The notes below the pieces were generated by a model. That model searched no databases. It worked only from the letters and a program-made list of their open reading frames with translations, and was not told the origin of the DNA. Both the position numbers and the translations under genes were made by a program. Shown piece after piece: positions 10,054 through 44,139 of a stretch of DNA of 64,000 bases; within the stretch, counting starts at the first letter, position 1; every line of letters begins with the position of its first letter. This DNA is from Sphingomonas panacis (lineage in GTDB: Bacteria > Pseudomonadota > Alphaproteobacteria > Sphingomonadales > Sphingomonadaceae), in NCBI RefSeq assembly GCF_001717955.1, contig NZ_CP014168.1, forward strand, positions 2,389,501 through 2,453,500. The letters are read 5' to 3'.

Positions 10054-10151
10054 CCGCGAACTGCCCCCTCTGCACCGCGCGCAAATCATAACAATCAGCG
10101 CGGGGCTGTCATCTCCTTGCAGCCGTCCGCGTTAGGCGCCAAGGCTTAGGA

Positions 10152-23981: not shown

Positions 23982-24450
23982 GGCTTCCTCCTCGCCACCC
24001 CAAAAGGCACAAAGCCTCCCCGCGAAGGCGGGGGTGGGCGGCAAAAAGCGACCAAGAGGCCCGGCTCCAGCGGCTGGCGGCACCTCCCGGGGCCCCGTCG
24101 CGCTTGGGCGACGGGGTGGATCAGAGGGCGAAACGCAGTGGAGCACCCCGAAGCGCGAGCGCAGGGGTTGCCGCCGGCCGCGCCGGGCCTAGCCGGGAGC
24201 GCCGCCCGCACCCGCCGCAACGGGAGAGGCACAGACAAAGCCGCCGCGCCGGGGCGCGGCGTCCGCGTCAGGTCGGACGATCGTCCGGCCGTATGCGCAA
24301 GCGATCGTTACCTCGGGCCGAGACTCGCGTCGCGAGGCTCGGTGGCGAGGGCCTGCCCGAACCATAGAGCGCGGTCGCGCGTCAGCGCGAGGCGCCCAAG
24401 TATACGGGTATCTGGCTGTGTAGCGTCAGGATTGCGGGAGCTGCCTTCGC
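23982..24450. other. GC-rich leader and gap upstream of ardC
   Basis: These 469 bases contain the ardC leader repeat (24093-24116) and GC-rich sequence with several short G/C runs. No credible gene is seen. An element end or attachment site may lie around here, because the gene set changes from transfer functions to the lasso locus shortly after, but I could not identify flanking direct repeats. Confidence 0.4.
24093..24116. promoter_or_regulatory. leader inverted repeat upstream of ardC
   Basis: CCCCGTCGC (24093-24101), loop GCTTGG, GCGACGGGG (24108-24116), perfect arms, about 112 nt before the start at 23981. It closely resembles the DUF736 leader repeat (CCCCATCGC/GCGATGGGG). Confidence 0.5.
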
Positions 24451-24784: not shown

Positions 24785-25321
24785 TTGGCCGGCTACAAAC
24801 CGAAACTTGACCAGCAACTGGGAAATGAAAGTTGGACCGAACGAGGTATTGAAGACCTGTTTCGTCTTCATGCCGGCTGGCTTCGCACGTTCCTGCTGCG
24901 GCGGCTGCGCGCGCAGCCGGCGGATGTGGAGGACATCGTGCAGGACACCTATCTGCGCGCGGCACGCCAGCCGGGGACGGTGATCGTCCATCCAAAGGCG
25001 TTCCTGTCGCAGACCGCGACCAACCTGTTCCGCGACGGAAAACGCCGCGAGTCGGTGCGGGCACGACATCGCGAGTCGGTCGCGCACGCCGGGGCAGGGG
25101 CGGGGTCGGCGCCGCCCGGGCTGCTGGAGCAGGAGGCCGCGCTCGAGCTCGAGCGTCTCATCGTGGCGATGCCCGATGCGTATCGAGACGTCTTCGCTTT
25201 GAGTCGGTTTCGGCATATGACGAACGCGGAGATTGCCGCGCACCTCGATATCTCGGTGAAGACGGTCGAGTGGCGAATGGGCAAGGCTCTGGCATTTTGC
25301 GCGAGCAGGCTACGAGACTAG
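24785..25321 (+). CDS. FecI-like ECF sigma factor of the lasso locus
   Basis: This 178-residue protein has sigma region 2 (about residues 20-85: DLFRLHAGWLRTFLLRRLRAQPADVEDIVQDTYLRAAR...FLSQTATNLFRDGKRRE) and region 4 (LERLIVAMPDAYRDVFALSRFRHMTNAEIAAHLDISVKTVEWRMGKAL). It matches the FecI iron-uptake-type ECF group. In this group the sigma factor is released when a TonB receptor signals through FecR. The start is a TTG at 24785 with GGAG 7 bases upstream. The fecR-like gene follows immediately, so the pair forms the signalling operon for the receptor. Confidence 0.92.
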   Translation: MAGYKPKLDQQLGNESWTERGIEDLFRLHAGWLRTFLLRRLRAQPADVEDIVQDTYLRAARQPGTVIVHPKAFLSQTATNLFRDGKRRESVRARHRESVAHAGAGAGSAPPGLLEQEAALELERLIVAMPDAYRDVFALSRFRHMTNAEIAAHLDISVKTVEWRMGKALAFCASRLRD

Positions 25322-26347
25322 GTGGCGCCGTTCATGACTGGACCCGATCAGCACGACGAAAACGCCGTCGAGGCACAAGCGGCGCAGTGGTTCGCACGCC
25401 TCAAGTCGTTGCCGGTGTCACGCGAGACCCTGCAGGCGTTCTTCGAATGGCAGCGCGACGAAACCCATGCCGAAGCCTTCGCGGCGGTCGAGCGGCTGTG
25501 GTCACGCGCCGGTGACCTTGGCGATCGCCCGGCGATCGCCGCCGTCACGCACGCCGCACTGGCACGCAAGGCGCGGCGGCGCTGGCTTGGGCTGGCCTGG
25601 CCCCCGCATCCGGCGCTCGCGGCGCTGGCGGTGGTCGTGCTCGTCCTGCTCGGCATCGGTGCGACCTATTGGGCGATGCGCCCCGGCGCGAACGACTATG
25701 CGACCGCGATCGGCCAACGCAGCGTCGTCGCGCTCGCGGATGGGTCGCAGGTAACGCTCGACACCGACACGCGGATCGTCACGCGCTTCGACACGGACGA
25801 ACGCCGCGTCGTGCTCACGCACGGCCAGGCGTATTTCACGGTCGCTCATGACACGGCGCGTCCGTTCCGAGTCGAGGCGGACGGGACGGAGGTGCTCGCC
25901 ACGGGCACGCAATTCGCGGTGCGGCGGGACGGCGTTGGCGTCGACGTGACGCTGGTCGAGGGCAGCGTGCGGGTCACGCCGCGGGCCACATCGCCGACGA
26001 CGTTGCGCCCCGGACAGCGGCTGGTGCTGCGCGGCGACACCGCGGCGGTGGTGCAGGGGGTGGATACCAAGGCAGCGACGGCGTGGCGGCAGGGACGGAT
26101 CGTGCTCGACGGCTGGACGCTGGCGCGCGCGGTGGCCGAGGTGAACCGCTATACGAGGCGGCCGGTGCGGCTCGAGGCGGACCGGTTTGCCGAGGCACGG
26201 TTCAGTGGCACGTTCGATGTCGGTGACATCGACAGCTTCGTCGCGGCGACGACGGCGCTGCTGCCGTTGACCGCCGTGCGCGGCGCGAACGGGTCGATCC
26301 GCCTGGTCGATCGGGCCACCCGAGAAAAATCCTCGCAATCGACTTAG
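25322..26347 (+). CDS. FecR-like anti-sigma factor/transducer
   Basis: This 341-residue inner-membrane protein has an N-terminal cytoplasmic DUF4880-type segment (AVEAQAAQWFARLKSLPVSRETLQAFFEWQRDETHAEAFAAVERLW) and one membrane helix (ALAALAVVVLVLLGIGATYWAM, about residues 98-119). The periplasmic FecR domain follows (RSVVALADGSQVTLDTDTRI; GQAYFTVAHDTARPFRVEADGTEVLATGTQFAVRR). A C-terminal STN-binding region comes next (LDGWTLARAVAEVNRYTRRPVRLE). It relays the receptor signal to the sigma factor. GTG at 25322 directly follows the fecI-like stop; ATG at 25334 is an alternative. Confidence 0.92.
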   Translation: MAPFMTGPDQHDENAVEAQAAQWFARLKSLPVSRETLQAFFEWQRDETHAEAFAAVERLWSRAGDLGDRPAIAAVTHAALARKARRRWLGLAWPPHPALAALAVVVLVLLGIGATYWAMRPGANDYATAIGQRSVVALADGSQVTLDTDTRIVTRFDTDERRVVLTHGQAYFTVAHDTARPFRVEADGTEVLATGTQFAVRRDGVGVDVTLVEGSVRVTPRATSPTTLRPGQRLVLRGDTAAVVQGVDTKAATAWRQGRIVLDGWTLARAVAEVNRYTRRPVRLEADRFAEARFSGTFDVGDIDSFVAATTALLPLTAVRGANGSIRLVDRATREKSSQST

Positions 26348-26413: not shown

Positions 26414-29400
26414 ATGGGGGCAGTGGGGATGACAGGACTTCAAGCGCGGCGGTGGAACGCGCTGCGCGGCGGATATGCGATCGGGCTGGTGCTGGCGGCA
26501 CTGCCATCGGCTGTGCAGGCGAAGCCGGCACCGGCGGTGTTCAACTTCAGGATCGCGGCGGGATCGTTGCAACACGCGCTGGTCACGTTCGCGTCGGTGA
26601 CGGGCGAGCAACTGCTGTATTCGACGGCGTTGGTCGCCGGCCGCCGGGCCCCCGAGCTGGAGGCGCGCTTGAGCGCGGACCAAGCCCTCCACCGCCTCCT
26701 AGATGGAACCGGTCTGGTGGCGCAGCGGGTCGGACCGCGCATGATCGTGCTGCGCCCGCCGAGCGCGGCCGAGCGCGGTCCGGCCGAGACCGCCGCCAAT
26801 GCGGGTGCGATGGTCATGTCGCCGAGCGGCGGCGGGATGGCGGCCGCGCAGCCCGAACAAGGCCCAAGGACCACTCCGCAGAGCGCACAGGACGATGAAC
26901 CGGCCCGCGACGACATCATCGTCACCGGCACGCATCTGCGCGGCGGCGCGGCGGGGTCGCCGCCGGTCGAGCGGCTGACCCGCGACGATCTCGACCGGCG
27001 TGGCTTCGCGACCGTCGCGCAAGCCTTGCAGGCGCTGCCGGGCAATTTCGGGGGGATGGCGAACGAGCAAAGCGCGCTCGCTTTCGCCGACACGAGCGGG
27101 AGCAATGGCGGGTTCGCGACCGGCGTCAACCTGCGTGGCCTGGGGGCGGGCGCGACGCTGGTGCTGGTCAACGGTCAGCGGCTCGGCGGGTCAGGCACCA
27201 AGGGCGCGTTCGCCGATGTCACGAGCATCCCGACCGGCGCGCTCGACCGGGTCGAGGTGCTGATGGACGGCGCATCGGCGATCTACGGGTCCGACGCGGT
27301 CGGCGGCGTGGTCAACATCCTGCTCAAGCGCCATTTCAAAGGCGCGGAAACGCGGGTGCGGTTCGGCAGCGTCACCCGCGGCGGCAAGCGCGACGTGCAG
27401 ATCGACCAGACGCTCGGCAAGCAATGGAGCACGGGCGGCGTGATGCTGTCGTATGAATATGACCAGTCGGGGCGGCTGGCGAGCGCCGACCGCGCGTTCG
27501 CGCGCTCGACCGATTCGCGCAGCCTCGGCGGAACCGATCACCGCTATGTCTACAGCCTGCCCGGCAACGTGCTCGGCATCGATCCGGCGACGGGCGCGCT
27601 CGGCGTCGCCTATGCGATCCCGTCCGGTCAGGACGGCACCGCGTTGACCCGGGCGGACTTCGTGGCGGGCAAGACCAATCTCCAGAACGCGCGAATCGAC
27701 ACCGACCTGATCCCGCGCCAAGTCCGGCACAGCCTCTACGCGACGCTCGACCAGGATGTCGGCGCCGGGGTTCATGTCACCGCCGACGCGCGCTACGCGC
27801 ACCGCGCGTTCGATGCGCGGCTGCCCGGATCGGCGGCGATCGTGCAGGTCACCGCCGCCAATCCCTATTTCGTGTCGCCGACCGGCGCGCGCTCCGACCT
27901 GATCGCCTATTCGCTCGCGCCGGAACTGGGACCGATCGACACGCACGGCTATGCCGAAGCGCTGGCGACGTCGCTCGGACTCGACGCCGATCTCGGAGCG
28001 GGCTGGAAGCTGCGCGGCTATGCGGCGTTCGCGCAGGAACGCGAGTTCAACGAATCGCGAAATCTGGTCAATACGGCGGCGCTCGCCGAAGCGACCGGCA
28101 GCATTCCCGACAACCCGGCAACGCCGTTCAGCACCGCGCGCGACGGCTTCTTCAACCCCTATGGCACGGGGCAATCCAATTCGGCGGCGATCCTCGACTT
28201 CGTCGGCGACGGCTATTCGCGCTCGCGCACGCGCAGCCAGGTGCTGACCGCGCATGTCGATGCCGATGGCTCGCTGTTTTCGGTACCCGGCGGTACGGTC
28301 AGGCTGGCGCTCGGTGGCGACGTGCGGCGCGAGACCTTCCGCCGTAGCGGCGAAAGCTTGCTGTCGACCGCGTTGCCGGTGGCGACCGCCAGTGTCGCTG
28401 CGTCGCGGCTGATCGAAGCCGGCTTTGTCGAAGCGCAGGTGCCGATCGTCGGCCCCGGCAACGCGATGCCGTTGCTCCGCCGGCTCGACGTGTCGCTGGC
28501 GGTGCGAGTCGAACAGTATGACGATTTCGGCACGACCACCAATCCCAAGGTCGGGGTAGCCTGGGTGCCGATCTCGGGGGTGACGCTGCGCTCGAGCTTC
28601 GGCACGTCGTTTCGCGCGCCCAACCTGCGCGAGTTGCGCGACCCCGAGCAATATTCGGTCACCACGCTGACGCGTGGAGGCGCGAGCGTGCCAGTGATCC
28701 AGCTGTCGGGCGGCAATCCCGGCCTCAGGCCGGAAAAGGCGCAAAGCTGGACCGCCGGATTCGATATCGATCCGGCGGCAATTCCGCATTTCCACCTCAA
28801 TGCGACGTGGTTCAGTACGGTGTTCAAACAGCGCGTGGCGACGCCGGCGAGCGCGAACTTCGCCAATGCGCTGAGCGATCCGACGCTGGCGCCGTTCGTG
28901 CAACTGGTCTCGCCGAACAGCAGCGCGGCCGATCTCGCCCGCGTGACCGGGCTGCTCGGCGACCCGGCATTCACCGGCGGCAACAGCTTCCCGCCAGCGA
29001 GCATCGCCGCGATCGTCGACACGCGCTACGTCAATACCGGCAAGGTCGAGGTGAGCGGGATCGACCTCACCGCGAGCTATACGCTTCCGATCGGCGCCAA
29101 CCAGGTCACGCTGTCGGGCAACGGCTCCTACCTGCTCCACTACCGCGAACAGGTGACGCCGACCGCGACTTCAGTCGACCGGATCAACCGGGTCGGCCAG
29201 CCGGTCGACCTGCGTGGCCGCCTGAGCGTCGGCTGGAGCCGGGGGCCGCTCAATGCGCTGCTTGGGCTGAACTATGTCGCGCCCTACCATGATCTGCTCG
29301 GCAACCCGATCCACGCCTGGAAGACGCTCGATCTGCAATTGGGATATCGCGCGCCCGAGGATAGCGGCGCGCTCGAGGGACTGGCGATCGCACTGTCCGC

Positions 29401-29521
29401 GCAGAACCTGCTCGAGCAGGCACCGCCGTTCTACGATTCGCCGGTCGGAGTGGGGTATGACGCCGCCAACGCCGATGCGCTCGGGCGTTACCTGGCGATC
29501 CAACTCACCAAGCGTTGGTAA
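26414..29521 (+). CDS. TonB-dependent receptor with N-terminal STN signalling domain
   Basis: This 1,035-residue outer-membrane transporter has, in order, a signal peptide (about residues 15-36, ending SAVQAKPA) and an STN domain (FRIAAGSLQHALVTFASVTGEQLLYSTALVAGRRAPELE...MIVLRP, about 40-115). A linker and plug follow (DDIIVTGTHLRG; ATVAQALQALPGNFGG; LVLVNGQRLGG; DRVEVLMDGASAIYGSDAVGGVVNILLK). The barrel ends in AIQLTKRW with terminal aromatic Trp. The STN domain talks to FecR. Located between fecR and the lasso isopeptidase, it is likely the importer of the lasso peptide or a related one, as in astexin-type loci. The ATG at 26429 is an alternative start. Confidence 0.93.
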   Translation: MGAVGMTGLQARRWNALRGGYAIGLVLAALPSAVQAKPAPAVFNFRIAAGSLQHALVTFASVTGEQLLYSTALVAGRRAPELEARLSADQALHRLLDGTGLVAQRVGPRMIVLRPPSAAERGPAETAANAGAMVMSPSGGGMAAAQPEQGPRTTPQSAQDDEPARDDIIVTGTHLRGGAAGSPPVERLTRDDLDRRGFATVAQALQALPGNFGGMANEQSALAFADTSGSNGGFATGVNLRGLGAGATLVLVNGQRLGGSGTKGAFADVTSIPTGALDRVEVLMDGASAIYGSDAVGGVVNILLKRHFKGAETRVRFGSVTRGGKRDVQIDQTLGKQWSTGGVMLSYEYDQSGRLASADRAFARSTDSRSLGGTDHRYVYSLPGNVLGIDPATGALGVAYAIPSGQDGTALTRADFVAGKTNLQNARIDTDLIPRQVRHSLYATLDQDVGAGVHVTADARYAHRAFDARLPGSAAIVQVTAANPYFVSPTGARSDLIAYSLAPELGPIDTHGYAEALATSLGLDADLGAGWKLRGYAAFAQEREFNESRNLVNTAALAEATGSIPDNPATPFSTARDGFFNPYGTGQSNSAAILDFVGDGYSRSRTRSQVLTAHVDADGSLFSVPGGTVRLALGGDVRRETFRRSGESLLSTALPVATASVAASRLIEAGFVEAQVPIVGPGNAMPLLRRLDVSLAVRVEQYDDFGTTTNPKVGVAWVPISGVTLRSSFGTSFRAPNLRELRDPEQYSVTTLTRGGASVPVIQLSGGNPGLRPEKAQSWTAGFDIDPAAIPHFHLNATWFSTVFKQRVATPASANFANALSDPTLAPFVQLVSPNSSAADLARVTGLLGDPAFTGGNSFPPASIAAIVDTRYVNTGKVEVSGIDLTASYTLPIGANQVTLSGNGSYLLHYREQVTPTATSVDRINRVGQPVDLRGRLSVGWSRGPLNALLGLNYVAPYHDLLGNPIHAWKTLDLQLGYRAPEDSGALEGLAIALSAQNLLEQAPPFYDSPVGVGYDAANADALGRYLAIQLTKRW

Positions 29522-29523
29522 GC

Positions 29524-31950
29524 ATGACATCGTCCTGGTTCCGCGCAGCGCTGCGGCTTGCGCTGCCGTGTCTGCTGGCGGTCGCGACGCCGCTTGGTGC
29601 GCGCCCGTACAGCGTCGACGACATGCTGATGACCGAGGCCTTCGGCAGGATCGAGACGTCGCCCGGCGGGCGTTGGCTGGTGTTCGAACGGCTGGTGCCG
29701 TTCGAGACCGCCGCGCGGTTCGATCTCGACGCGATGGATGTGCTGCGGTCGCGCTTGTATGTCGTCGACCTCGCGCATCCGGCCGAGGCGAGGCCATTGC
29801 TGGCGCCCGAGCAGCGCGCCGGCATGATCATGCTCGGCTTTTCGCCGGACGGGACGCGGCTGGCGATCGGACGGCTCGACGGACCGCGCTGGACGCTGGG
29901 CGTGGTCACACTGACGAGCGGCGCGATCCGCTGGTTCGCGGTCGCGCCGGATACTTCCGAGTTCCGGCCGACGCTCGCCTGGGTTTCCAACACGCAGGTG
30001 GTGATGCTGGCGCAAGCCGGCGACACGCCGCCCTGGGTGTTGCGGCGTGACACCGAGGACCGTGCCGAGGTTGGGCGATTGTGGGCGCAGGCGCAGGCCG
30101 GGCGGGTGCCGACCGTCACCGCGATCGGCAGCGGACGCGATAGCACGGTCACGCCGCCGGCACCGCCGGTTCGGCTGGTCCGCCTCGATGTGACGACCGG
30201 CGCGACGAGGCTGCTCGCGCAAGGCGATTTCGAAACGCTGCGGCTGTCGCCCGACCGACGTCACGTCGCGCTGACCGAGCAAGCCGAGGTCATCCCCGTC
30301 ACCACTACAGCACCGATCCGGCAGTCCGACGATCTCAGGCGGCGCAGGTTGCGCATCGTCGATCTCACCGATGGACACATCTGGTCACCGTGCGCGGCGT
30401 GCGACCTGCCGTTCGATCCGCCAGTCTGGTCGCCACGCGGTGACCGGCTGCTGTTCTTCGCCCGACACGCCGCGCAGACCTGGGCTGCTGGCCGACCTTG
30501 GGTCGCGGATCCTGGATCACGCCAGGTGACGCCGGTCGCGCTTTCGGGCGTCCGCCCCGAGGTGATCATGCGCCGCGGTGCCTATGATGCGGTCGGGCTG
30601 GGCTGGCTCGGCAAGCGGCCACTGCTGTTCGGCCGCAACGCGGCACCAGGCGCGCGCGCCGACTGGTATGCGCTCGACGCGTCGGGCGCGACCATCCTGA
30701 CGGCGAACGTCGCCGCGCCGACGGCGACGCTGGCGGCGGGTACGGCCCCGATCATGCTGGCGTCGGGCGCGGCGTGGCGGCTGGGTGCGCGCAAGGCGCG
30801 GCCGCTGCTAGCGGGAATGGATGGCGTCGCGGCATTCGCGACCGTCGCGGAGCGGCCCGGGCAGAGTGCGACGCTGCTGGGCTGGCGGCAATCCGGCGGC
30901 GGTATCGTGATCGACGGACCGAGTGGCGGCACGCGCCGGTTCGCGGCGCACGCCGACAGCGCGGTGCGGCCAGTGGCGGCCAGCGTCCGGAACGGCCTGG
31001 TCGTGAACGAGATCGAGGCCAATGGCGTCGCGCATCTCGCCATCGTGCCGAGCAGCGGGCGGACGCTAACCGTGGCGACGATCAACGCGCGGCTGGCCGG
31101 TGTGTCGGCGCGCGCGCCGGTGCCGGTCCGCCATCGGCTGCCCGACGGCAACACGGTGACGAGCTGGCTGTATTTGCCCGAGCCTGGCGCCGCGACAACG
31201 AAGCCGCCGCTGATCGTCATCCCCTATGCCGGCACGGTGTATGGCGACACGCCGCCGGCGTTGTGGAACCCGGGAGTCGGGCGCACCTACACCAATGTGC
31301 CCGCGCTGGTCGGGCACGGCTATGCGGTATTGCTGCCAAGCATGCCGGCGCTCACCGCCACCGATCATGGCTCGTTCGATGTCGCAGGCCAGGTGCTCTC
31401 GGGGGTCGATGCGGTGATCGCGCGCGGTGAGGCCGACCCGACCCGGCTCGGCCTGTGGGGGCATAGCTATGGCGGCTATACCGGCGCGACGATCGCCACC
31501 GAGACCGACCGGTTCAAGGCGATCATCGTGTCGAGCGGGATCTACGATATGACCAGCTTCCAGGGGACGTTTGCGCCGACCGCGCGGCGGTCGCCGGGCT
31601 ATGGGCTCGGGATCCTGCCCTGGGCGGGCTGGACCGAGACCGGGCAACCGGGCCTCGGCGCGACACCGTGGAGCAACCCGGCGCGCTATGTCGCGAACAG
31701 CCCGATCTATCACGCCGACCGGATCACCACGCCGCTGCTGATCATGGCCGATGACCGGGACTTCACGCCGTTGCAGCAGGGCGAGCAATTGTTCTCCGCG
31801 CTCTACCGGCAAGGCAAGGACGCCCAACTGGTCAGCTATTGGGGCGAGAATCATGTGCTGATGAGCCCGGCCAATGTCCGCGACGCTTATGCCCGCGCGT
31901 TTGCCTGGTTCGATCGCCATTTCGCAGGCGCGGGTACGCCAGGGCGCTGA
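29524..31950 (+). CDS. lasso peptide isopeptidase (S9 prolyl-oligopeptidase family, AtxE-like)
   Basis: This 808-residue exported protein has a signal peptide (MTSSWFRAALRLALPCLLAVATPLGA). A beta-propeller follows (GMIMLGFSPDGTRLAIGRLDG; LSPDRRHVALTEQ), then an alpha/beta hydrolase domain with nucleophile Ser in GLWGHSYGGYTG (about residue 645), Asp in MADDRDFTP (about 742) and His in WGENHVLMS (about 776). AtxE-type enzymes hydrolyse the macrolactam isopeptide bond of lasso peptides without needing to unthread them. The start is 2 bases after the receptor stop, so the two are one operon. Its place beside precursor, B and C genes makes the assignment stronger than homology to S9 peptidases alone. 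Confidence 0.9.
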   Translation: MTSSWFRAALRLALPCLLAVATPLGARPYSVDDMLMTEAFGRIETSPGGRWLVFERLVPFETAARFDLDAMDVLRSRLYVVDLAHPAEARPLLAPEQRAGMIMLGFSPDGTRLAIGRLDGPRWTLGVVTLTSGAIRWFAVAPDTSEFRPTLAWVSNTQVVMLAQAGDTPPWVLRRDTEDRAEVGRLWAQAQAGRVPTVTAIGSGRDSTVTPPAPPVRLVRLDVTTGATRLLAQGDFETLRLSPDRRHVALTEQAEVIPVTTTAPIRQSDDLRRRRLRIVDLTDGHIWSPCAACDLPFDPPVWSPRGDRLLFFARHAAQTWAAGRPWVADPGSRQVTPVALSGVRPEVIMRRGAYDAVGLGWLGKRPLLFGRNAAPGARADWYALDASGATILTANVAAPTATLAAGTAPIMLASGAAWRLGARKARPLLAGMDGVAAFATVAERPGQSATLLGWRQSGGGIVIDGPSGGTRRFAAHADSAVRPVAASVRNGLVVNEIEANGVAHLAIVPSSGRTLTVATINARLAGVSARAPVPVRHRLPDGNTVTSWLYLPEPGAATTKPPLIVIPYAGTVYGDTPPALWNPGVGRTYTNVPALVGHGYAVLLPSMPALTATDHGSFDVAGQVLSGVDAVIARGEADPTRLGLWGHSYGGYTGATIATETDRFKAIIVSSGIYDMTSFQGTFAPTARRSPGYGLGILPWAGWTETGQPGLGATPWSNPARYVANSPIYHADRITTPLLIMADDRDFTPLQQGEQLFSALYRQGKDAQLVSYWGENHVLMSPANVRDAYARAFAWFDRHFAGAGTPGR

Positions 31951-31952
31951 GG

Positions 31953-33758
31953 TCAGCTCGGCTCGGCCTGGATCGCGGCGAGCCGATCGCACCACGCGCG
32001 TGCCCAATGTTCCATCAGCAGTGCCACGAAGATCTCGGTATAGCTGTTGGTCTGCATCAGATGGTCGGGATCGAGCACCGCCGCCGTGCTGGCCGGATCG
32101 AGCACCTGATGCTGGACGAGCACGCCGCCGAGCAGATAGTCGCGCAGGAACGGCGTGCTGGCGGCGAGCATGCGCCCGAAAAAGGGGGTGAGGCAGCCCT
32201 TGCCGCGGCGTTCGAGCAGGATCGGCGGCAGCCGGGTCCGGTACGCCGCACGGATCATCGCGCGGTCGCGCTTGCCTTGGGTGAGGTCGAGTGCGGAGAG
32301 CGGCAGGACGTGCTCGAGCAGCGGCTGCGACATCAACGGATGCAGCACCGTCATCGTCGATGCGCACCACGATCCGCCGAACGCGGCGCGCGCCGCTGCG
32401 AGGTTGAGGATCTGCAGTTGCTTGGCGGGCGCGAGGTCGGCGGTGTCGTCGAGCCAACGTAACGGATGCGCCTCGCGCGGCATGGCGTTCGCGACGAGAT
32501 CGACACGGTACGCGGGCGTGGCGATCGGGGCGGGCGCCACACGCGCGCGTAGCGCGGTGCCGAGCACCGACCAGATCGGTCGTCCGCTCCAGGCGGCGAG
32601 ATCGGTGATCGCCGCGCACCGGGCGGACCACGAGCGACGATCACGCCAGAGATCGGCGGCGATCAAGGGACTTGCCGGCTGAAAGAACAGCGCATCGCCG
32701 CCCTGGCCGGTCAGCAAGGTATCGGCGCCGAGCGCGCGACCGCGCGCGGCGAGATCGCGGTCGTGGAAGAAGCTGATGCTGGCGACATTGGGGCGCAGCG
32801 TCACCGGCACGTCGGCCATCAGCGCGGCGTCGATCAGCCGCTGGTCCTGCAGGGTTTCGTGGAGCGGCAGATCGAGGTGTGCGGCGACGGCGCGTGCATA
32901 GACGCGTTCGTCGCCTTCGCGGTCGCTGGCATAATAATGGAACCAGCCAGCGACGGGGTGGTCCGAGCGGGCGAGGCCGGCGGCGACGATCGCCGAGTCG
33001 AGCCCACCTGAGAGTTCGGCGATCGCGACATTCGAGCAGGAACGCCAGGCGCGGACACAGGCATCGACCAGCGCGGGCAGCGGCGATGTGCCGGATACCG
33101 GCGGTGATAGCGCGGACGCGCGCGCGAAACGCGCAGGCGCCCAGTGCCGGGTCGCGTGTCGCGTCCGTCCGGCCAGTTCCAGTCGGACACCCGGCTCAAG
33201 CGTCTCCACCCCGGTGAACGGGAGCGCATCGGCAACTGAGCCTGGAAAGCGCAGCAGACCAGCGACCCTCGGCCAATCGATTGCGAGGTCGGCCGGCGCG
33301 GCCAAGGCAAGGAAGCGCTCGGGCGCGGAGGTGACGGCCCGGAGCGCACCGCAGCGCCACGAGACGCACTCGGTCATCCCGATGGGGTCGCGGAACATGT
33401 CGAGACGCGATGGGTCATCCCTGTCGATCGCGAGCGCGACATAGGCGCCCCAGCAGCGCGTCGTGAGTTGCTCGCACATGCTCGCGAAATCCCCGGCGTT
33501 AGCCGCGACGACACCTGCGGCAACGTCGCCTTGCTCGGTCGCCGCCCGATCGAACAGCGCGCCGACCACGATGGTGCGATCATCGAGCATTCGGTGCGTA
33601 CAAGCATCCCCCGAACGGGGATCGGTCATCACCGTCCAGCCGGGCTGGTCGATGAGGCAATGCCAGCCCAGATCAAGCGCGCGCTGGCGAAGCACGTGTG
33701 CGGTGCGGTCGGGGGCGGGCGTGCCGGCCGGCCAGCGCAAAGCGACGAAGCCGGTCAT
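31953..33758 (-). CDS. lasso peptide macrolactam synthetase (C protein, asparagine-synthetase-like)
   Basis: This 601-residue protein is an AsnB-like ATP-dependent enzyme that adenylates the ring-closing Asp/Glu side chain of the core and joins it to Gly1. The N-terminal glutaminase-like domain lacks a Cys at position 2 (MTGFVAL), as expected for lasso C proteins that do not use glutamine. The synthetase domain carries the PP-loop ELSGGLDSAIVAAGLA near residue 247, plus TLLTGQGGDALFF and KGCLTPFFGRML. It starts with an ATGA overlap with the B gene (33755-33758), so the two are coupled. It is convergent with the isopeptidase with only 2 bases between the stops. Confidence 0.92.
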   Translation of the reverse strand: MTGFVALRWPAGTPAPDRTAHVLRQRALDLGWHCLIDQPGWTVMTDPRSGDACTHRMLDDRTIVVGALFDRAATEQGDVAAGVVAANAGDFASMCEQLTTRCWGAYVALAIDRDDPSRLDMFRDPIGMTECVSWRCGALRAVTSAPERFLALAAPADLAIDWPRVAGLLRFPGSVADALPFTGVETLEPGVRLELAGRTRHATRHWAPARFARASALSPPVSGTSPLPALVDACVRAWRSCSNVAIAELSGGLDSAIVAAGLARSDHPVAGWFHYYASDREGDERVYARAVAAHLDLPLHETLQDQRLIDAALMADVPVTLRPNVASISFFHDRDLAARGRALGADTLLTGQGGDALFFQPASPLIAADLWRDRRSWSARCAAITDLAAWSGRPIWSVLGTALRARVAPAPIATPAYRVDLVANAMPREAHPLRWLDDTADLAPAKQLQILNLAAARAAFGGSWCASTMTVLHPLMSQPLLEHVLPLSALDLTQGKRDRAMIRAAYRTRLPPILLERRGKGCLTPFFGRMLAASTPFLRDYLLGGVLVQHQVLDPASTAAVLDPDHLMQTNSYTEIFVALLMEHWARAWCDRLAAIQAEPS

Positions 33759-34417
33759 GCGCTCGCGCGTTCGATCTGGAGGATGGTCGCGAAGCCTTCG
33801 ACCTTGCCGAGACGCTCGGCGAGCAGCAGGTCGCCGTGGGCGAGCCAACAATGCGCATGGAACGGGAACAGAGACACGCCGAAGATCCAGTCGGCTCCGA
33901 GGCCATAGGAACGCAGGAAGTGGAGCAGCAGGAGGGACCGGAACAGGCATGTAATGCGGAACGGCAGCCACAGGCACAGCCGCTCGAAACGGGCGGCCAC
34001 GTTTGCGTGGCTGGCGTGGCGGGTAGGGGCCGCGCAGCGTTGCGCGTGCGCGATCATCTGCGCCAGTGACGAGCGCCGGAACCGCCACGCGGTGCGGACC
34101 AGTGCGCGCAGGAAATGGCCCAGGTCTCGGAGACCCACGTGCGCCGGGTCCGGTCCGCAATCTTCGCGCCAAAGCCGGGTGACCGGGCGCGCGACGGCAC
34201 CGGGTGCGGGGCGATCGGCGACCAAATTCTGTTCGATCAACTGGGCGCGGATCGCCGCGCGCATGGCGTTGCCGCCGTCGTCCGCTGCGACCGGCGCATA
34301 CAGGCAGAAATACGCATCGCGGTCGACATCGAGAAAGACCAGGCCATCCGAGGCGCGGACGGCATGGACGCCGTCGGCCAGCGCGAGCTTGTCGAGAAGG
34401 TCTGAGTCTGGCGACAT
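33755..34417 (-). CDS. lasso peptide B protein: fused leader-binding (PqqD-like) and transglutaminase-like protease
   Basis: This 220-residue protein combines the two B functions that are separate in Firmicutes and Actinobacteria. Residues 1-80 form the PqqD-like leader-recognition element (LALADGVHAVRASDGLVFLDVDRDAYFCL). The rest is the cysteine protease that removes the leader: the candidate Cys is 157 in FRITCLFRSLLLLHFLRSYG, with His 189 in PFHAHCW and Asp 196 as triad members. Fusion is normal in proteobacterial loci. The ATG at 34417 is preferred over 34441, which would fall in the hairpin at 34435-34466. It lies 57 nt after the precursor stop. Confidence 0.9.
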   Translation of the reverse strand: MSPDSDLLDKLALADGVHAVRASDGLVFLDVDRDAYFCLYAPVAADDGGNAMRAAIRAQLIEQNLVADRPAPGAVARPVTRLWREDCGPDPAHVGLRDLGHFLRALVRTAWRFRRSSLAQMIAHAQRCAAPTRHASHANVAARFERLCLWLPFRITCLFRSLLLLHFLRSYGLGADWIFGVSLFPFHAHCWLAHGDLLLAERLGKVEGFATILQIERASA

Positions 34418-34434
34418 GAGGAATCCCTGACCAT

Positions 34435-34466
34435 ACGGCACCGGTTCCGAAAGGAACCGGTGCCGT
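34435..34466 (-). terminator. 14-bp perfect hairpin between lasso precursor and B gene
   Basis: ACGGCACCGGTTCC (34435-34448), loop GAAA on the plus strand, GGAACCGGTGCCGT (34453-34466). It begins 8 bases past the precursor stop codon. There is no U-run after it, so it is probably a partial attenuator or a 3'-stabilising stem. That would let the precursor mRNA outnumber the processing-enzyme mRNA, as proposed for other lasso operons. Confidence 0.7.
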
Positions 34467-34474
34467 TGCCCTCG

Positions 34475-34594
34475 TCAGTCGTAGAAGCCGACCATCAGCG
34501 ATTCCTGCTTGGCGCCGATCGGGGTGCCTTTGGTCTCGCGGCGTGCGGAGCCGAGTGCGACCAGCTTGGGCGCGGATTTTTGGTCTTTCGTCAT
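34475..34594 (-). CDS. lasso peptide precursor (39 residues, core GTPIGAKQESLMVGFYD)
   Basis: ATG at 34594 with an AAGG ribosome site encodes a 22-residue leader and a 17-residue core. The leader carries the proteobacterial pattern P-x-L-x-x-L-G-x-x-R-x-x-T-x before the cut (PKLVALGSARRETK), with the conserved Thr at the penultimate position (Thr21). The core begins with Gly and has Glu at position 9 (GTPIGAKQE), giving a 9-residue Gly1-Glu9 macrolactam. The tail SLMVGFYD has bulky Phe15/Tyr16, and possibly Met12, as steric plugs. It is too short for routine gene callers. It does not match any lasso core I can recall. The gene sits between the GntR regulator and a hairpin leading into B and C. 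Confidence 0.9.
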   Translation of the reverse strand: MTKDQKSAPKLVALGSARRETKGTPIGAKQESLMVGFYD

Positions 34595-34684: not shown

Positions 34685-34699
34685 TATATCTGGGATATA
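34685..34699. promoter_or_regulatory. palindrome TATATC-TGG-GATATA upstream of the precursor
   Basis: Six-base arms with a 3-base centre lie 8 bases past the gntR stop and about 90 bases before the precursor ATG. A similar TATAT-N5-ATATA site occurs at 37053-37069. It is a candidate operator for the adjacent GntR regulator or part of the precursor promoter. Confidence 0.4.
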
Positions 34700-34706
34700 T
34701 TCACGC

Positions 34707-35297
34707 TCACGCCGTCCCTCGGCCGAACATCAGCGCGATCTCGGCGGCGGCCGCGATGCGTTGTTCGTGGAAGGCGCGGATCTGATCGTGCGCCTGGTCG
34801 AGGTTGTGCTCGAGGAGTACCCGCTGGAGCGTGATCGCTGCCGATGCGGCATCCCCGAACAGCGCGGTATCGCAGCGTCGCACGAGTTTCAGGCGGTCGT
34901 CGAGGTAGCGATGGAGGTCGGATACGATCGCCTCTCCGCCCGCGTCGACGATCCTGCGGAACACCGCCCAGATGTCGGCCGACTCTGCGCCGGGCGTGAT
35001 CCGCAGATCGCCGCGCAGCGCCCGGTTCAAGCATATCAGGTGCAGGCTGTAGAGTTCGGTGATGTCGCGCGCGTCGAGCCGCGCCAGATAATAGCCTTCC
35101 GAGCGATGCTCGGTCACCACGTCGCGCCCGACCAGACGGGACAGGATCTCGCGCAGCGGCGTCACGCTGACATGAAGCTGGCTCGCCAGATCCTTGAGGC
35201 CGATGCGGTCGCCGGGGCGATAGCGGCCATCGCCAAGCTGGTCCGACACCAGTGCATAAAGATCGTCGAAACGTGCGCGCTCCACCCGGTTCGGCAT
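34707..35297 (-). CDS. GntR-family transcriptional regulator of the lasso locus
   Basis: This 196-residue protein has an N-terminal GntR winged helix (DDLYALVSDQLGDGRYRPGDRIGLKDLASQLHVSVTPLREILSRLVGRDVVTEHRSEGYYLARL, residues 9-75). A helical FCD-like effector domain follows (ITELYSLHLICLNRAL...IVSDLHRYLDDRLKL). The effector domain is shorter than the usual 150 residues and its metal-binding His residues are not obvious. The GAAGGAG site supports the start at 35297. It lies directly upstream of the precursor on the same strand. GntR genes accompany several sphingomonad lasso loci, so a role in controlling the precursor is likely but unproven. Confidence 0.88.
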   Translation of the reverse strand: MPNRVERARFDDLYALVSDQLGDGRYRPGDRIGLKDLASQLHVSVTPLREILSRLVGRDVVTEHRSEGYYLARLDARDITELYSLHLICLNRALRGDLRITPGAESADIWAVFRRIVDAGGEAIVSDLHRYLDDRLKLVRRCDTALFGDAASAAITLQRVLLEHNLDQAHDQIRAFHEQRIAAAAEIALMFGRGTA

Positions 35298-35620
35298 CGC
35301 AAAGGCTCCTTCGCGGGCGATCCTTGTTGGGCGGTTTGCCACCTGTCGATGCACCGCGCCGGAATTGGTGCCCAGGAACACGTCCGCGCTGATCGCTTGC
35401 GCGGTAGCTGCGGGAAGACGGCGGTCGAACCGCAATCTTTCGGCGGTCTTATCGCGAATCCGATCGGCTCGCCGCACCGGACTGGCGCGGCACTGGTGAC
35501 GGTGCCGAAACGGTTTGGTGACAGGCCATGGCGGATTGTGTCTATAATCCCGGCGCTTGCCATCCGTTTTGGCGCGACGAGGGCGAGCGCTCGTGTGATT
35601 TGGCGCCCGAGGTTGCTGGC

Positions 35621-36151
35621 ATGAAGCATTCCTCCATCGAGGTCGACGCCGACGTGCGCATCCTCACGCAATCGTTGCGCGCGATCCGCAAGAAGCGCGG
35701 CATGACGGCAAGCGACATTGCGGCCGCGCTGGAAATGCCGCTGCGCACCTATCAGGAGTTCGAATCCGGCCGCGGGCCGCTGACCCACAAGCGGCTCTTC
35801 GCCTTCGCGGAAGCGACCGATTGCGATCCCTTCGCGCTGCTGCTCGGCGCGATCTTCGGGCAGGCCGACCTCGCGATCGACTGCGCGGATACGAAATTCT
35901 GCATGATTATGATGATGTATTTCGAGGATTTCGCCCGCGACCGTGGCGGCGACATCGCCTATCTCGATCCACCCAACCTCGCCGGCGGGTTTGATCGCTT
36001 GTTCAAGGATTTTGGCGCCCTGCTCGACGACCGCGAGCGGTTCTTGCAAAACTGGCTGGCCAACCGAACCGGTTCGATCGCGCTGAGCGCTCTTCGTCAG
36101 CGCATGGTCAACCGCCGCGACCGGAAGGCGGGAGAGCCGCGCAAGGAGTAG
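35621..36151 (+). CDS. XRE-type helix-turn-helix protein
   Basis: This 176-residue protein has an N-terminal HTH (LTQSLRAIRKKRGMTASDIAAALEMPLRTYQEFESGRGPLTHKRLFAFAEATDCDPFALLLG, about residues 12-72). An uncharacterised helical C-terminal domain with a Met-rich stretch (CMIMMMYFEDFARDRGGD) follows. The regulatory target is unknown. ATG 35621 is chosen because the upstream in-frame extension to 35528 is Cys/Trp-rich and unlike an XRE N terminus. It is divergent from gntR and convergent with a DUF2285 pseudogene. Confidence 0.85.
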   Translation: MKHSSIEVDADVRILTQSLRAIRKKRGMTASDIAAALEMPLRTYQEFESGRGPLTHKRLFAFAEATDCDPFALLLGAIFGQADLAIDCADTKFCMIMMMYFEDFARDRGGDIAYLDPPNLAGGFDRLFKDFGALLDDRERFLQNWLANRTGSIALSALRQRMVNRRDRKAGEPRKE

Positions 36152-36198: not shown

Positions 36199-37000
36199 TC
36201 AACGCCGCACCAGATCGAGATAGCCACCGGCTACGAGTTCGCGCGCCTGGCCAACCAGGCGGTGCGTGCGGGTGCGCAGATAATCCGAACCGCCGGACCA
36301 GTCCCGGCTGACGAGCGCCGTGCCGAACAGGTGTTCGGCGACCGAACGATGACGTGACGTTAGCGCGAGCGCGTCAAGCACGCGTAGAATATCTGACCAC
36401 CGCCGCGCTTTCGCATTCGTCGGAAACAGGGCTACGGGCATGCGGCGGCTTCGCAAGAACGCCGCGAACCGGCGCAGGGCAAGCAACCGGATCTCCAAGC
36501 GGTCGGTGCCGCTCAGTTGATACGCCAGCCTGACCGGGCCGTCGAGGAGCGTGCCATGCGCGACGCTAAGCCGGATCGAATGCGGGCCTATTCCCAGCAG
36601 TACGTGTTCACCTCCCGAGGGTAGCAACAAATGTGTAATCGGACCCGGCGCCGCAGAAAGGTCGAACCCATCTCTGTCGCCGCGCATAGTCGGGACGGCA
36701 TCGACGACTACAACCAGCGGATCGCGGTGTGGCTGCCAGAAGACCCGGGCGCGGTCGGCCGGGCGGCCAGGGTCCTCCGCGAAACAGCAATCCCCATTGC
36801 GGATCGGGCAGGGAGGCGGAGAGGAATTCGATTCGCTGTGAACCTTGCTCGACGCGGTTCACTGCGGCTTCGCCGGCATCAATCTGATAATCGGCGCGGC
36901 GGCGCAGAATCTCCCATGCGATGCTGCCAGCGTCCCATAGACTATCAGGTGATGGCGTACCGCGGACGACAAGTGGCGGAATCGGGCGATGTGCTGCCAT
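36199..37000 (-). pseudogene. DUF2285-domain (transposase/regulator-like) protein with one frameshift
   Basis: ATG at 37000 opens a frame with the N-terminal signature of DUF6499/DUF2285 proteins (LWDAGSIAWEILRRRADYQID...PDPQWGLLF). After about 36775 the reading continues in another frame as REDPGRPADRARVFWQPHRDPLVVVVDAVP, then LLLPSGGEHVLLGIGPHSIRLSVAHG and the DUF2285 C-terminal block to 36199. One extra G in the GAG of the R-E-D codons (CGCGGAGGAC) explains the break. The full product would be about 266 residues. These proteins travel with conjugative elements, so this marks an element remnant beside the lasso locus. Confidence 0.75.
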
Positions 37001-37361: not shown

Positions 37362-38015
37362 TCAACGCATGTTTTCCGCGTGTACAGACTGCGCTTCGTC
37401 CACCGAATCATACTGCGTCATCACGCCGTGGGACAAAACGCACCCGCTATTGCAATGCTCCCGGACGTATTGCGCATCATGCGACACGATGATGTAGCTG
37501 CGATCCGCGCGTCTGACGAAGAGTTCGTCATGGCATCGCTGTTGAAATCGAGCATCCCCAACCGCGACGACTTCATCGATAAGATAACAATCGAAATCAA
37601 CCATCATAGACAACGCAAAGGCAAGCCGCGCGCGCATGCCCGACGAATAGGTTTTCAGCGGTTCGCGGAGATAATGTCCAAGTTGAGAAAAATCTTGGAC
37701 GAAATCAATAACTTCATCGAAGTTTTTTTCGTAAATTCGGCAAATGAACCGCATATTGTCGAAGCCGGTCATCGACCCCTGGAAGGCTCCCGAAAAAGCG
37801 AGCGGCCACGAAATTCGGGTCGTCCTCGTGATCTGCCCCGAGGAGGGCCGTTCGATGCCGCTAATCAGCCGGATAAGGGTCGATTTCCCCGAACCGTTTC
37901 CTCCTAGGATGCAGATTTTTTCGCCGTCGTCGACCTTGAGGTTGATGTTCTTCAGGATATGCGCTTGGCCCGTGCGCGTGGCGTAATATTTCTCGATATT
38001 GCTTAACTGAATCAT
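37362..38015 (-). CDS. polysaccharide ABC exporter, ATP-binding subunit (KpsT/CtrD-like)
   Basis: This 217-residue ATPase drives export of a lipid-linked capsule-type polysaccharide across the inner membrane. Walker A is GGNGSGKST (about residues 37-45), the signature motif is YSSGMRARLAF and Walker B is CYLIDEVVAVGD, with the switch His in YIIVSHD. The length matches group 2 capsule KpsT (about 220) rather than the longer Wzt with a carbohydrate-binding C domain, so no terminal-sugar recognition is expected here. Its start overlaps the permease stop (ATGA, 38012-38015). Confidence 0.93.
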   Translation of the reverse strand: MIQLSNIEKYYATRTGQAHILKNINLKVDDGEKICILGGNGSGKSTLIRLISGIERPSSGQITRTTRISWPLAFSGAFQGSMTGFDNMRFICRIYEKNFDEVIDFVQDFSQLGHYLREPLKTYSSGMRARLAFALSMMVDFDCYLIDEVVAVGDARFQQRCHDELFVRRADRSYIIVSHDAQYVREHCNSGCVLSHGVMTQYDSVDEAQSVHAENMR

Positions 38016-38812
38016 TCCGGAATAAACTCTCGGCTTACCTGCCGCTCCAGCGCGAGACCCAGCAAGGTCAGAACCAGATTGCAGGCTATCAGATACTGGG
38101 CGTCGTAATGGGGCGTGAATTTGCTGCCAAAATATGCAGCCCGCACCATCTCCGTGCAGTGAACCATCGGGATCCACAGGATAAATTTCTGGAACGCTTC
38201 CGGCGTCGATTCGACCAGGAACGCCGCGCCTGACAGCGGGAACAGCAGATATGCCGCAGGGTGCCAGAGTTTCTCAACCATCTCGGAGCGTTCTGCGAGC
38301 GTTCCCAGCAGAATTGCCAGTGCCATACCGAACCAGGCGGTCAACAGCCATGCCTGCGCCAGCGATAGGATGTCTTCGGGTGGCGGCATCCATTCAATCG
38401 CCCAAAACAGCAGCGACAGGATTGTGAAAGACATGGTCGCACCCGCCGCTTCCAAGCAGGTTCTGGACAGAAAAATGTCCATGACCCGCACGTTGCGATG
38501 ATACATCAGCGATGAGTTCGGCAGTATCGAGCCGACGCACCGCATCGGCATATTGCGCCAAAGCAAGACGGTGGAATATCCGGTCAGCGCGAAAGCGGTG
38601 ATCGGTAACGACGATGAGCGGTGCAAGCCTGAGAAGCTCCACAGCGCCGTCACGCCTAGCGTGAATAACATGGGCTCGACGAACAGCCACAGAAACCCGA
38701 TATTGTGGCGACCGTAGCGAGTCATCACCTCGCGCATCATCAGCGCCCAGATGACCCGCAATTGAATCTCGGCGGATCGGGCCAGCGATCGCGGCGGCAG
38801 TGCTTGCGACAT
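38012..38812 (-). CDS. polysaccharide ABC exporter, permease (KpsM/CtrC-like)
   Basis: This 266-residue ABC-2-type permease has about six membrane segments (for example FLWLFVEPMLFTLGVTALWSF, ATMSFTILSLLFWAIEW, AWLLTAWFGMALAILLGTLA, LWHPAAYLLFPLSGAAFLV and YLIACNLVLTLLGLALE). The N-terminal cytoplasmic helix MREVMTRYGRHNIGFLW is the family signature. It pairs with the ATPase gene that overlaps its end by 4 bases. The KpsE-like gene ends 4 bases before its start, so the three form one operon. Confidence 0.92.
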   Translation of the reverse strand: MSQALPPRSLARSAEIQLRVIWALMMREVMTRYGRHNIGFLWLFVEPMLFTLGVTALWSFSGLHRSSSLPITAFALTGYSTVLLWRNMPMRCVGSILPNSSLMYHRNVRVMDIFLSRTCLEAAGATMSFTILSLLFWAIEWMPPPEDILSLAQAWLLTAWFGMALAILLGTLAERSEMVEKLWHPAAYLLFPLSGAAFLVESTPEAFQKFILWIPMVHCTEMVRAAYFGSKFTPHYDAQYLIACNLVLTLLGLALERQVSREFIPE

Positions 38813-38816
38813 GACT

Positions 38817-39926
38817 TTAGTCCTGATGTTCGCGGATGCCGGACAAGAGCATCGACAGGATTCCATACGCGATCAAGCCAAGCACGAAAGTGCCCAAGAT
38901 ACCCCGCAGTCGTCGCGGCTCGAGCGCGTTGTCCGGCTGGCTTGGTTCGACAATCCGTTCGATATAGCTTTGCTTACGCCGCGCTTCGTTGAGCGCCTCG
39001 TCAAGCGACCCCATTGCCGAGGCGAGCTGCTTGTCGGCAATCTGGCTTTCAAGGAACAGGCGTTGATATTGCGCGGTCTGGCTAGCGAGCGACCGACGCC
39101 CGCCCGCGACCAAGCTGAGCTGTTCTCTAATGGCGCGCTCGAGCGTGGCTCGCTTGACTTCCAGCGACTGAACTTGCGGGTTTTGCGGCGCCATGCTGCG
39201 CAACTGATCGAGTTCGGTCGTGGCCGTGATCAGTTCGTCTTGCAGTTTGGAGATCATCTGCGTCTGGACGGTGGCCTGCTTTTCGGGATCGACAATGCCC
39301 GATCTGTCGCGGAAGCTAGACAAGGCGATGGCTGCGCTGGAGGCGCTGCGCTTCGCGTCGTCCACTTCGGTCCTGGCAAAGCGTATCAGATCCTGGCGAC
39401 CGCGAACGTTGAGTCGGTTAACCGTCGCTTCTGCCATTTCCAGCAACTGCTCGTTGATGCGCTTCGCGTCGGCTCCGGAGAAAGCGCGTACCTTAAGTGT
39501 CGCGATCGAGGAGGTGGAATCGTGGTCGATATGGACATGATCCCCATAGAAACGATAAAGCTCCTCAAAGCTTCCGCCGCTCCCTGTGGGATTGAACCGG
39601 TCGAACATCGAAATGTAGGGCCGCTCGTACGCCTGCTGATATAGATTAGCTCGGTTCAGTATGCGCAGCGCATCTCGAGACTCCACAAACGTCTCCGCCG
39701 CATAGCTCTCTTCGCTCGAATTGGAGAAGCCGGCCGTCTTCAGAATGATGCCCAGCCCCGAGGAGGCGGGCTTGTCCGGGCTTCGAACGACGAATTTCGA
39801 CTCAGATATATAGACATCTGACGCGATAAATCCGAAGTAAATGATCGCCAGGACTGTAGGGGCTAAAACAATTAGTATGAAGGTCCGGCTAAGTCCCATT
39901 GCTCGGTCTCGGATGTTCGCAAGCAT
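38817..39926 (-). CDS. polysaccharide export inner-membrane/periplasmic protein (KpsE/BexC-like)
   Basis: This 369-residue polysaccharide co-polymerase-type protein has membrane segments at the N terminus (TFILIVLAPTVLAIIYFGFIA, about 15-35) and near the C terminus (ILGTFVLGLIAYGILSMLL). Between them lies a long periplasmic region with coiled coil (about 195-310: VDDAKRSASSAAIALSSFRD...SLEVKRATLERAIREQLSLV). KpsE homologues link the ABC exporter to the outer-membrane channel. It is the first gene of the minus-strand export operon and is divergent from the outer-membrane exporter gene at 40186. Confidence 0.92.
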   Translation of the reverse strand: MLANIRDRAMGLSRTFILIVLAPTVLAIIYFGFIASDVYISESKFVVRSPDKPASSGLGIILKTAGFSNSSEESYAAETFVESRDALRILNRANLYQQAYERPYISMFDRFNPTGSGGSFEELYRFYGDHVHIDHDSTSSIATLKVRAFSGADAKRINEQLLEMAEATVNRLNVRGRQDLIRFARTEVDDAKRSASSAAIALSSFRDRSGIVDPEKQATVQTQMISKLQDELITATTELDQLRSMAPQNPQVQSLEVKRATLERAIREQLSLVAGGRRSLASQTAQYQRLFLESQIADKQLASAMGSLDEALNEARRKQSYIERIVEPSQPDNALEPRRLRGILGTFVLGLIAYGILSMLLSGIREHQD

Positions 39927-40185
39927 TAATCATCATCTTTCAAGGTGCAGAACGGGTGGCCGACGCCATTTTCCGCAAGGTCGATTGGTCGAAATTCGCA
40001 GAATTTGCAAACGGAAAGGCTCATCGGCCCGTCTCGGCGGAGGGCGGTGGGACGCGCGCGTCGTCGCTGGCCGCGGCCCAGCGTGGCGTAAGGTCCGAAA
40101 ATACGGCGTTTTGCAGTTGCGCCTTGTTTCATGGCCGCGAAAATCGTAAACCCCGCCTGCGGAAGCGCCGGGCGCAAGGAATTTC
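39927..40185. promoter_or_regulatory. divergent promoter region of the two export operons
   Basis: These 259 bases separate the minus-strand kpsE-M-T-like operon from the plus-strand kpsD-like gene and must hold both promoters. I could not place -35/-10 boxes with confidence. AAGGAA precedes the ATG at 40186 as ribosome site. Confidence 0.5.
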
Positions 40186-41343: not shown

Positions 41344-41475
41344 CGGTGATCGATCCGGGATATCGCGCTTGCAGGCTAAGCCGGCGCGTGGTGCGATAGA
41401 CCATGTGGCACAGCGCGTTCGCCGAGCCATTTCTGGCATCCTGGCCGGGTCGCCCTTGTCCGTCATGCGGTATGT

Positions 41476-44024: not shown

Positions 44025-44139
44025 GCTTTGGCGTTAGGGCTACCGCAAAGCGCCTTCCGGTGGCAGTTGAAAGTGGTGGCTATGCGTGCGAGGCGCTCAC
44101 CAGCGTGCCGGCGACGGAAGATTGGGAGCTAAGGTGTTG

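Follow-up and report, generated by a model that had tools for sequence, protein, structure and literature searches.

Organisation of the gene cluster

The window, by which we mean the whole 64-kb stretch of Sphingomonas panacis DNA analysed, holds a cluster in which a GntR-family regulator and genes A, B and C follow one another on the minus strand and converge with a plus-strand series encoding FecI, FecR, a TonB receptor and an S9 peptidase, E. Gene A (34475..34594, minus strand) encodes a lasso peptide precursor with a 22-residue leader, MTKDQKSAPKLVALGSARRETK, and a 17-residue core, GTPIGAKQESLMVGFYD, for which a Gly1-Glu9 macrolactam is predicted. Its reading frame of 39 codons opens with ATG at 34594 and runs down to a TGA ending at 34475, and AGGAAAGG lies a few bases 5' of the start codon. 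The initial annotation had proposed a 39-codon gene here between a GntR regulator and a lasso B gene; the frame agrees to the base, on the minus strand, and both neighbours are recognised by models (Pfam GntR, 4.8e-11; NF033537 for B, 58.5 bits, cut-off 33). The longest frame of the regulator spans 34707..35477 (minus strand), an ATG near 35297 being the likelier start.

Downstream of A on the same strand, B occupies 33755..34417 and C, which encodes an asparagine-synthetase-like macrolactam synthetase, occupies 31953..33758, its start overlapping the stop of B (ATGA). On the plus strand lie genes for a FecI-like ECF sigma factor (24785..25321), a FecR-like anti-sigma factor (25322..26347), a TonB-dependent receptor with an STN signalling domain (26414..29521) and E, an S9 peptidase with a beta-propeller that is presumed to be an isopeptidase (29515..31950, starting at TTG 29515 or ATG 29524). 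The stops of E and C are two bases apart, and by eye the N-terminus of E resembles a signal peptide. An HTH_3 regulator (35528..36151, plus strand) and a RovC_DNA-bd-domain protein (36199..36687, minus strand) are encoded beyond the GntR gene.

An S9 peptidase, a TonB receptor and a FecI/FecR pair beside A-B-C mark the cluster as one of the isopeptidase type. The plan of such clusters, as given in the accessible part of PMC9266682, comprises a GntR gene before A, a TonB receptor and a sigma/anti-sigma pair; all are found here, and no exporter gene, ABC transporters included, was seen among the neighbouring genes scanned. The initial annotation had included neither the peptidase, the receptor and FecI/FecR nor the three further lasso clusters and the divergence of the branch described below.

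The precursor and its predicted ring

The leader of A carries P9-x-L11, G15 and a Thr at -2 (Thr(-2)-Lys(-1)), in keeping with the penultimate Thr and P-x-L...G spacing noted at the outset, and the core starts with Gly1 and has Glu at position 9. The gene product combines the leader, Thr(-2), small first residue and Asp/Glu at 7-9 of a lasso precursor. Residue 8 is Gln, which rules out an eight-residue ring in the window core and leaves Glu9 as the only fitting ring acid there. Leaders with a penultimate Ile or Val, reported for some Sphingomonadales in the part of PMC10368454 at hand, are likewise ruled out as the type of A, the residue being Thr. We computed a mass of 1793.8658 Da for the cyclised, dehydrated core ([M+2H]2+ 897.9402), in agreement with the earlier hand-summed values of about 1793.87 Da and 897.9, and a precise prediction for the window peptide (an ion at 897.94) is thus available.

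Against the benenodin precursor model NF033522, A scores 17.3 bits and falls short of the cut-off of 33; the A-family proteins of Sphingomonas sp. NFR15 and Sphingomonas sp. AP4-R1 are named 'hypothetical protein'. The 64-kb window gave one match to a lasso-like pattern, drawn up post hoc with the A gene already known, and its 150 Markov shuffles together gave one more (0.0067 per 64 kb). This count and the conservation of the gene rule out a chance ORF, and the best reading of the sequence is that A is a true lasso precursor whose product would bear a nine-residue Gly1-Glu9 ring.

Directly 3' of A, between A and B, lies a stem-loop, ACGGCACCGGTTCC-TTTC-GGAACCGGTGCCGT (34435..34466, minus strand; -28.7 kcal/mol). 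The 50 bases 3' of A in the window fold with a z of -6.7 relative to shuffles, and the equivalent bases fell below the shuffle mean in 15/15 loci (z -1.6 to -6.9). Thirteen of the 14 other loci have a strong single hairpin (<= -22 kcal/mol), the exception being L034. Such a hairpin is not new, since in the accessible text of PMC7549694 hairpin removal already figures among the ways of expressing astexin-1. On the 5' side, a palindrome, TATATC-CCA-GATATA (34685..34699, minus strand), sits about 100 bases before A as a candidate operator, and that GntR binds it would be a guess; the perfect six-base palindrome recurs in L028 and L033 and is imperfect or not seen in the other loci. The 5' dyad before A showed no clear folding excess over shuffles in most of the 15 loci (z -0.5 to -4.3), and no Rfam family matched at gathering score between 34300 and 35600.

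Conservation of the cluster in Sphingomonas and in sister loci

Within the genus, the A protein was found in 5/295 Sphingomonas genomes at E 0.001 and the C protein in 5/201 at 1e-60, the window's own genome included in each count. The core GTPIGAKQESLMVGFYD is identical in the window and in the public genome of Sphingomonas populi 3-7 (L005) and is thus not confined to one species; Sphingomonas sp. NFR15 encodes GTPIGARQESLMVGFYD, and two further close genomes encode GTPIGARQESLMVGYYD and GTPIGARQETLMVGYYD. The initial statement that no known lasso peptide has this core holds for the open-access literature searched, in which the core strings were absent save for one unrelated match in an antibody paper, and in which 'lasso peptide' and 'Sphingomonas populi' co-occur only within a reference list. 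A protein search returned six A-family proteins, the window's own among them, and added the variants P0002 and P0004-P0006. Variation in the core across this set is confined to position 7 (K/R), position 15 (F/Y) and position 10, where two of the database proteins have A or P instead of S/T; the other 14 positions are invariant. Pairwise comparison of the five close loci gives at least 15/17 shared core residues in eight of ten pairs, and the changes between these loci, in leader and core, are synonymous as well as conservative.

A class-wide sample returned C at 1e-55 in 1/385 genomes, the window's own alone, and E at 1e-45 in 2/367, the window's own and G905; within G905's family, E matched in G905 only, of two genomes. 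In the plasmid collection two Polymorphobacter records matched C (1e-30) and E (1e-40), and no others did. The family survey found C at 1e-60 in 8/397 genomes, one of which (G576) carries two copies, and gave, besides the window and NFR15, seven sister loci (L028-L034), which the tool's grouping assigns to other genera.

Each of the seven sister loci has a precursor-like ORF between GntR and B. These ORFs were chosen by eye for a Thr(-2), which also fixes the start of the predicted cores: GQVMGNTNEPLIGGLFYPA, GGPLGETDEAVIGLRFYA, ASVVGDQDEPILGGRYDG, ASVAGTRVESNMISLYS, ASFVGDLAEGVIRYQQP, SILPFGVEEFSGAPLYRPAV and AIVTAGQQEEFLPILSYQ. The cores of the lineage start with Gly, Ala or Ser. Glu stands at position 9 in 12/12 loci, or 8/8 lineages when the five close loci are counted once, with most flanking residues changed, which supports the Gly1-Glu9 ring first proposed from the window sequence. 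Residue 8 is acidic in L029, L030 and L033, where an eight-residue ring is possible. None of the seven sister precursors exceeds any NCBIfam cut-off, and the eight lineage precursors, the window's among them, are thus named by no NCBIfam model at its cut-off. L032 lies on a Polymorphobacter megasporae plasmid whose gene list, self-declared incomplete, omits the precursor.

E is present in all 12 lineage loci and lies head-on to C in 11; in L034 the receptor and E lie upstream of C and point in the same direction. At 1e-5 the HTH_3 gene was found in 12/12 lineage loci and the RovC-like gene in 10/12, and neither turned up in the three canonical clusters of this genome (0/3). The RovC-like gene of L033 stands at the far, FecI end of the cluster, a position that hints at a functional tie to it.

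The B and C enzymes

B combines an N-terminal leader-recognition-like region with a transglutaminase-like Cys protease, the putative leader peptidase, as expected of a lasso B protein. On the frame 33755-34441 it matches Transglut_core3 (3.2e-17) as well as the lasso B2 model given above. Pfam returned no RRE domain match in B; an alignment suggests that its N-terminus is like that of canonical B proteins. At the triad positions, which we take to correspond to those of McjB, Cys and His are conserved in 15/15 aligned rows. Nine lineage rows (the window and eight more) have Glu at the third, acidic position; the remaining three (L032-L034) have Asp there, as do the three canonical rows.

C, read as the macrolactam synthetase, has an Asn_synthase domain and scores below the cut-offs of both lasso/macrolactam cyclase models that it matched. 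In a tree of C, a single group holds all 12 lineage rows (96/86), with 19 canonical lasso C rows next to it (84/88); by descent the synthetase is thus lasso-C-like. The genome's own asnB matches C only at E 0.16 and lies far from it in the tree. Rows of 420 residues or fewer were dropped (L083, L086), L074, L079, L080 and L081 contributed none, and the 19 canonical rows count one gene twice (L013, L075). The alignment of C from the relative L015 changes frame around residues 166-172 (near 10113-10118), owing to a frameshift or an assembly error.

The S9 peptidase falls outside the AtxE2-type clade

E scores 84.6 bits against the AtxE2-type model NF033523, far from its cut-off of 400, and the trees place it outside the canonical AtxE2-type clade, so we do not assign it to the AtxE2 family. 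In the larger tree, 24 canonical isopeptidases group together (support 92) and lineage E groups with other S9 peptidases (100); eight close homologues interleave with lineage E, which is accordingly not one group (5 changes). A reduced tree with those eight left out again recovers the canonical group (14 rows, 100) and lineage E with other S9 peptidases (100), and here lineage E forms one group (98). The canonical loci comprise 22 of the 31 places over the AtxE2-type cut-off, plus L011 and L012. Of 270 E homologues found, 120 were listed, and the larger tree used 12 of these; it dropped L013 (the same gene as L075), L095 (a fragment) and L100 (overlong) and had no row from L096, L035, L037, L038 or L042; the reduced tree covers 10/12 lineage loci and 14/24 canonical rows. 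The peptidases from Caulobacter, Phenylobacterium, Novosphingobium and Steroidobacteraceae (among P0019-P0126), the kind to which the eight interleaved homologues belong, may themselves be lasso-linked.

An AU test rejected a topology that unites canonical and lineage E to the exclusion of 15 other S9 rows (p 9.2e-10), and did so again when P0098, P0110 and P0122, of Steroidobacteraceae type, were counted with the lasso enzymes (p 5.9e-8). Both p-values are optimistic because the groups were defined with the first tree already known and the trees contain long branches. A grouping of canonical with window-type E apart from five general S9 peptidases receives a support of just 73, so that descent of both from one old lasso peptidase, since divided in two, is possible. 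The 15 other rows include L107 and L108 of G905, in which a TonB receptor and an S9 peptidase related to those of the cluster form pairs. The small genes behind the L108 peptidase were read as an antitoxin-toxin pair, and its neighbourhood gave no match to the window's B or C at 1e-3; the contig of L107 is too short for its gene context to be judged.

The active-site Ser and His are conserved in all 57 aligned E rows, in a gappy region. The acid is Asp in 12/12 lineage rows, 12/12 homologues and 4/4 of the genome's own S9 rows, whereas it is Glu in 22/24 canonical rows, the exceptions being L075 with Ser and L078 with Gly. Both Glu and Asp are reported for isopeptidases in the part of PMC9266682 available, so Asp alone is no argument against such an activity. 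A structural model of E built with 56 sequences (pLDDT 90.7, pTM 0.90) has a propeller and a hydrolase domain. The top Foldseek match was 8wt1, an S9 carboxypeptidase, and SpI-IsoP (5jrk), a lasso isopeptidase, ranked 41st, the nearest solved structures being S9 carboxy- and acylaminoacyl peptidases; by sequence, AtxE2 (5txc) came third among 12 matches. A second structural comparison named no lasso isopeptidase among the 50 matches listed, which is no evidence against kinship. The modelled fold fits an isopeptidase without singling one out. Given the 84.6 bits and the closer likeness to general S9 peptidases, it is from gene position that E is presumed to be an isopeptidase.

Comparison with canonical and published lasso systems

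This genome has four isopeptidase-type lasso clusters, the window's and three canonical ones: L011 (C1:4284000-4302000), L012 (C2:291000-309000, on a 319-kb second contig) and L013 (C1:4087000-4105000). The three share the overall plan of the window cluster, and in 3/3 the isopeptidase faces C. Unlike in the window, their precursors pass the benenodin model (42.7, 49.5 and 49.2 bits; cut-off 33) and their peptidases the AtxE2-type model (807, 730 and 730 bits; cut-off 400). Their predicted cores, GGANSGDDSFLQRQPNGIGLEDD, GNDGNDIDMAHQRLQGGLSDD and GMGAPFSDTGDGRQLQPGLTDD, end in DD, whereas the window core does not, and their C proteins are just 25-28% identical to that of the window.

Like the astexin/AtxE2, benenodin/BenE and sphingopyxin/SpI-IsoP clusters, the window cluster has A-B-C, a GntR gene before A, an S9-fold peptidase, a TonB receptor, FecI/FecR, a Thr(-2) leader and no neighbouring ABC exporter. 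It departs from them in a precursor and an E that lie below the model cut-offs, in an active-site Asp where canonical enzymes have Glu (22/24), in the extra HTH and RovC-like genes and in Glu9 throughout. Scores below the cut-offs for precursor and peptidase may explain why annotation has overlooked the branch. In Sphingomonas BPH, too, a lasso operon, that of sphingocin, is accompanied by divergent genes for an isopeptidase and a TonB receptor according to the consulted part of PMC11006600, but the sphingocin core, GPGFINNDGVGGKLPFAGLSDD, ends in DD and the peptidase is described there as AtxE2-like. Metanodin, in the sections of PMC12670498 seen, resembles the window peptide in its A-B-C genes, inversely oriented peptidase gene and nine-residue ring, and differs in its Asn at position 1 and Steroidobacterales origin; the same sections give three clusters of its ABC group (group I) with an inverted peptidase gene and state that antiSMASH missed the metanodin precursor. 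If the metanodin peptidase belongs to the S9 branch of E, that branch is less new. The best reading of these sequence comparisons is that the window cluster is part of a lineage sister to the AtxE2/benenodin-type clusters and diverged from them, and it is this lineage and its peptidase, rather than the precursor itself, that are of greater interest.

Proposed function and alternatives

Taken as a whole, the locus is best explained by a lasso peptide that is made by A-B-C, re-imported through the receptor and opened by E, in a diverged sister lineage, a reading to which we give a probability of roughly 0.87. It builds on what is observed, namely the genes and their order, their conservation, the fixed Glu9 and the positions in the trees; from these we infer the product and its threading, export, uptake, cleavage and regulation. 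B would bind the leader and cut after Thr(-2)-Lys(-1), and C would activate Glu9 with ATP and close the Gly1-Glu9 amide around the eight-residue tail SLMVGFYD, with F15/Y16 as likely steric plugs. The exported peptide would be re-imported via the cluster's TonB receptor, the STN domain of which would signal occupancy through FecR to FecI. E, probably periplasmic, would then open the isopeptide bond, which would allow recycling of the peptide along with any cargo. Expression would be set by GntR, perhaps also by the HTH and RovC-like proteins, and the hairpin 3' of A may keep A mRNA above the level of B-C mRNA.

The isopeptidase may have been recruited separately in the window lineage, perhaps from a TonB-receptor-linked peptide-uptake pair. 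It is possible, with the odds somewhat against it, that the lineage is a second isopeptidase-type one whose linearising enzyme comes from a different S9 branch, the cycle of 'make, re-import, open' having been assembled twice around related synthetases. The same gene partners, a fixed Glu9, a core near-frozen among the close species and a peptidase of another S9 branch would then mean that the cycle itself is selected. The biological function of isopeptidase-type lasso clusters is termed enigmatic, and their peptides' role an open question, in the part of PMC9266682 consulted. To this the lineage adds an enzyme question, whether a non-AtxE2 S9 peptidase can open a threaded ring.

A lasso peptide could also be made while E, as an exo- or acylaminoacyl-type S9 peptidase, degrades other TonB-imported peptides or trims a linear tail. 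The grouping of E with other S9 peptidases instead of AtxE2-type enzymes, the S9 carboxy- and acylaminoacyl peptidases as closest solved structures and the related receptor-peptidase pair of L108, with antitoxin-toxin-like small genes behind it and no B or C match, all speak for such a role. We nevertheless hold it to be unlikely, since E accompanies the cluster in 12/12 loci and faces C in 11/12 (not in L034), as the isopeptidase does in 3/3 canonical clusters here. The peptide might instead be a narrow-spectrum antibacterial against kin bearing the same TonB receptor, with E conferring immunity by linearisation. Antibacterial lasso peptides do enter cells through TonB receptors, and in the portion of PMC9266682 at hand astexin-1 is reported as the single isopeptidase-type peptide with narrow activity; however, the other known ones are described there as lacking antimicrobial activity, and the core is nearly frozen between species, unlike in an arms race, which makes this role improbable. 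That A is a decayed or untranslated ORF in a cluster that no longer makes a lasso peptide would fit the C of L015, split between two frames, but the window cluster genes are open and the substitutions in A among the five close loci are both synonymous and conservative, and we regard decay as very improbable.

Flanking genes

Polysaccharide-export-like genes (KpsM/KpsE-like and an SLBB export protein) and large glycosyltransferases adjoin the lasso cluster at 37362-48723. The nearest ABC genes (37362-38866) were considered as a lasso exporter and rejected, their best match being polysaccharide export, below cut-offs. On the other side, 22986-24146 encodes an ArdC-like antirestriction protein (ArdcN and MPTase-PolyVal), which may point to mobile DNA next to the cluster.
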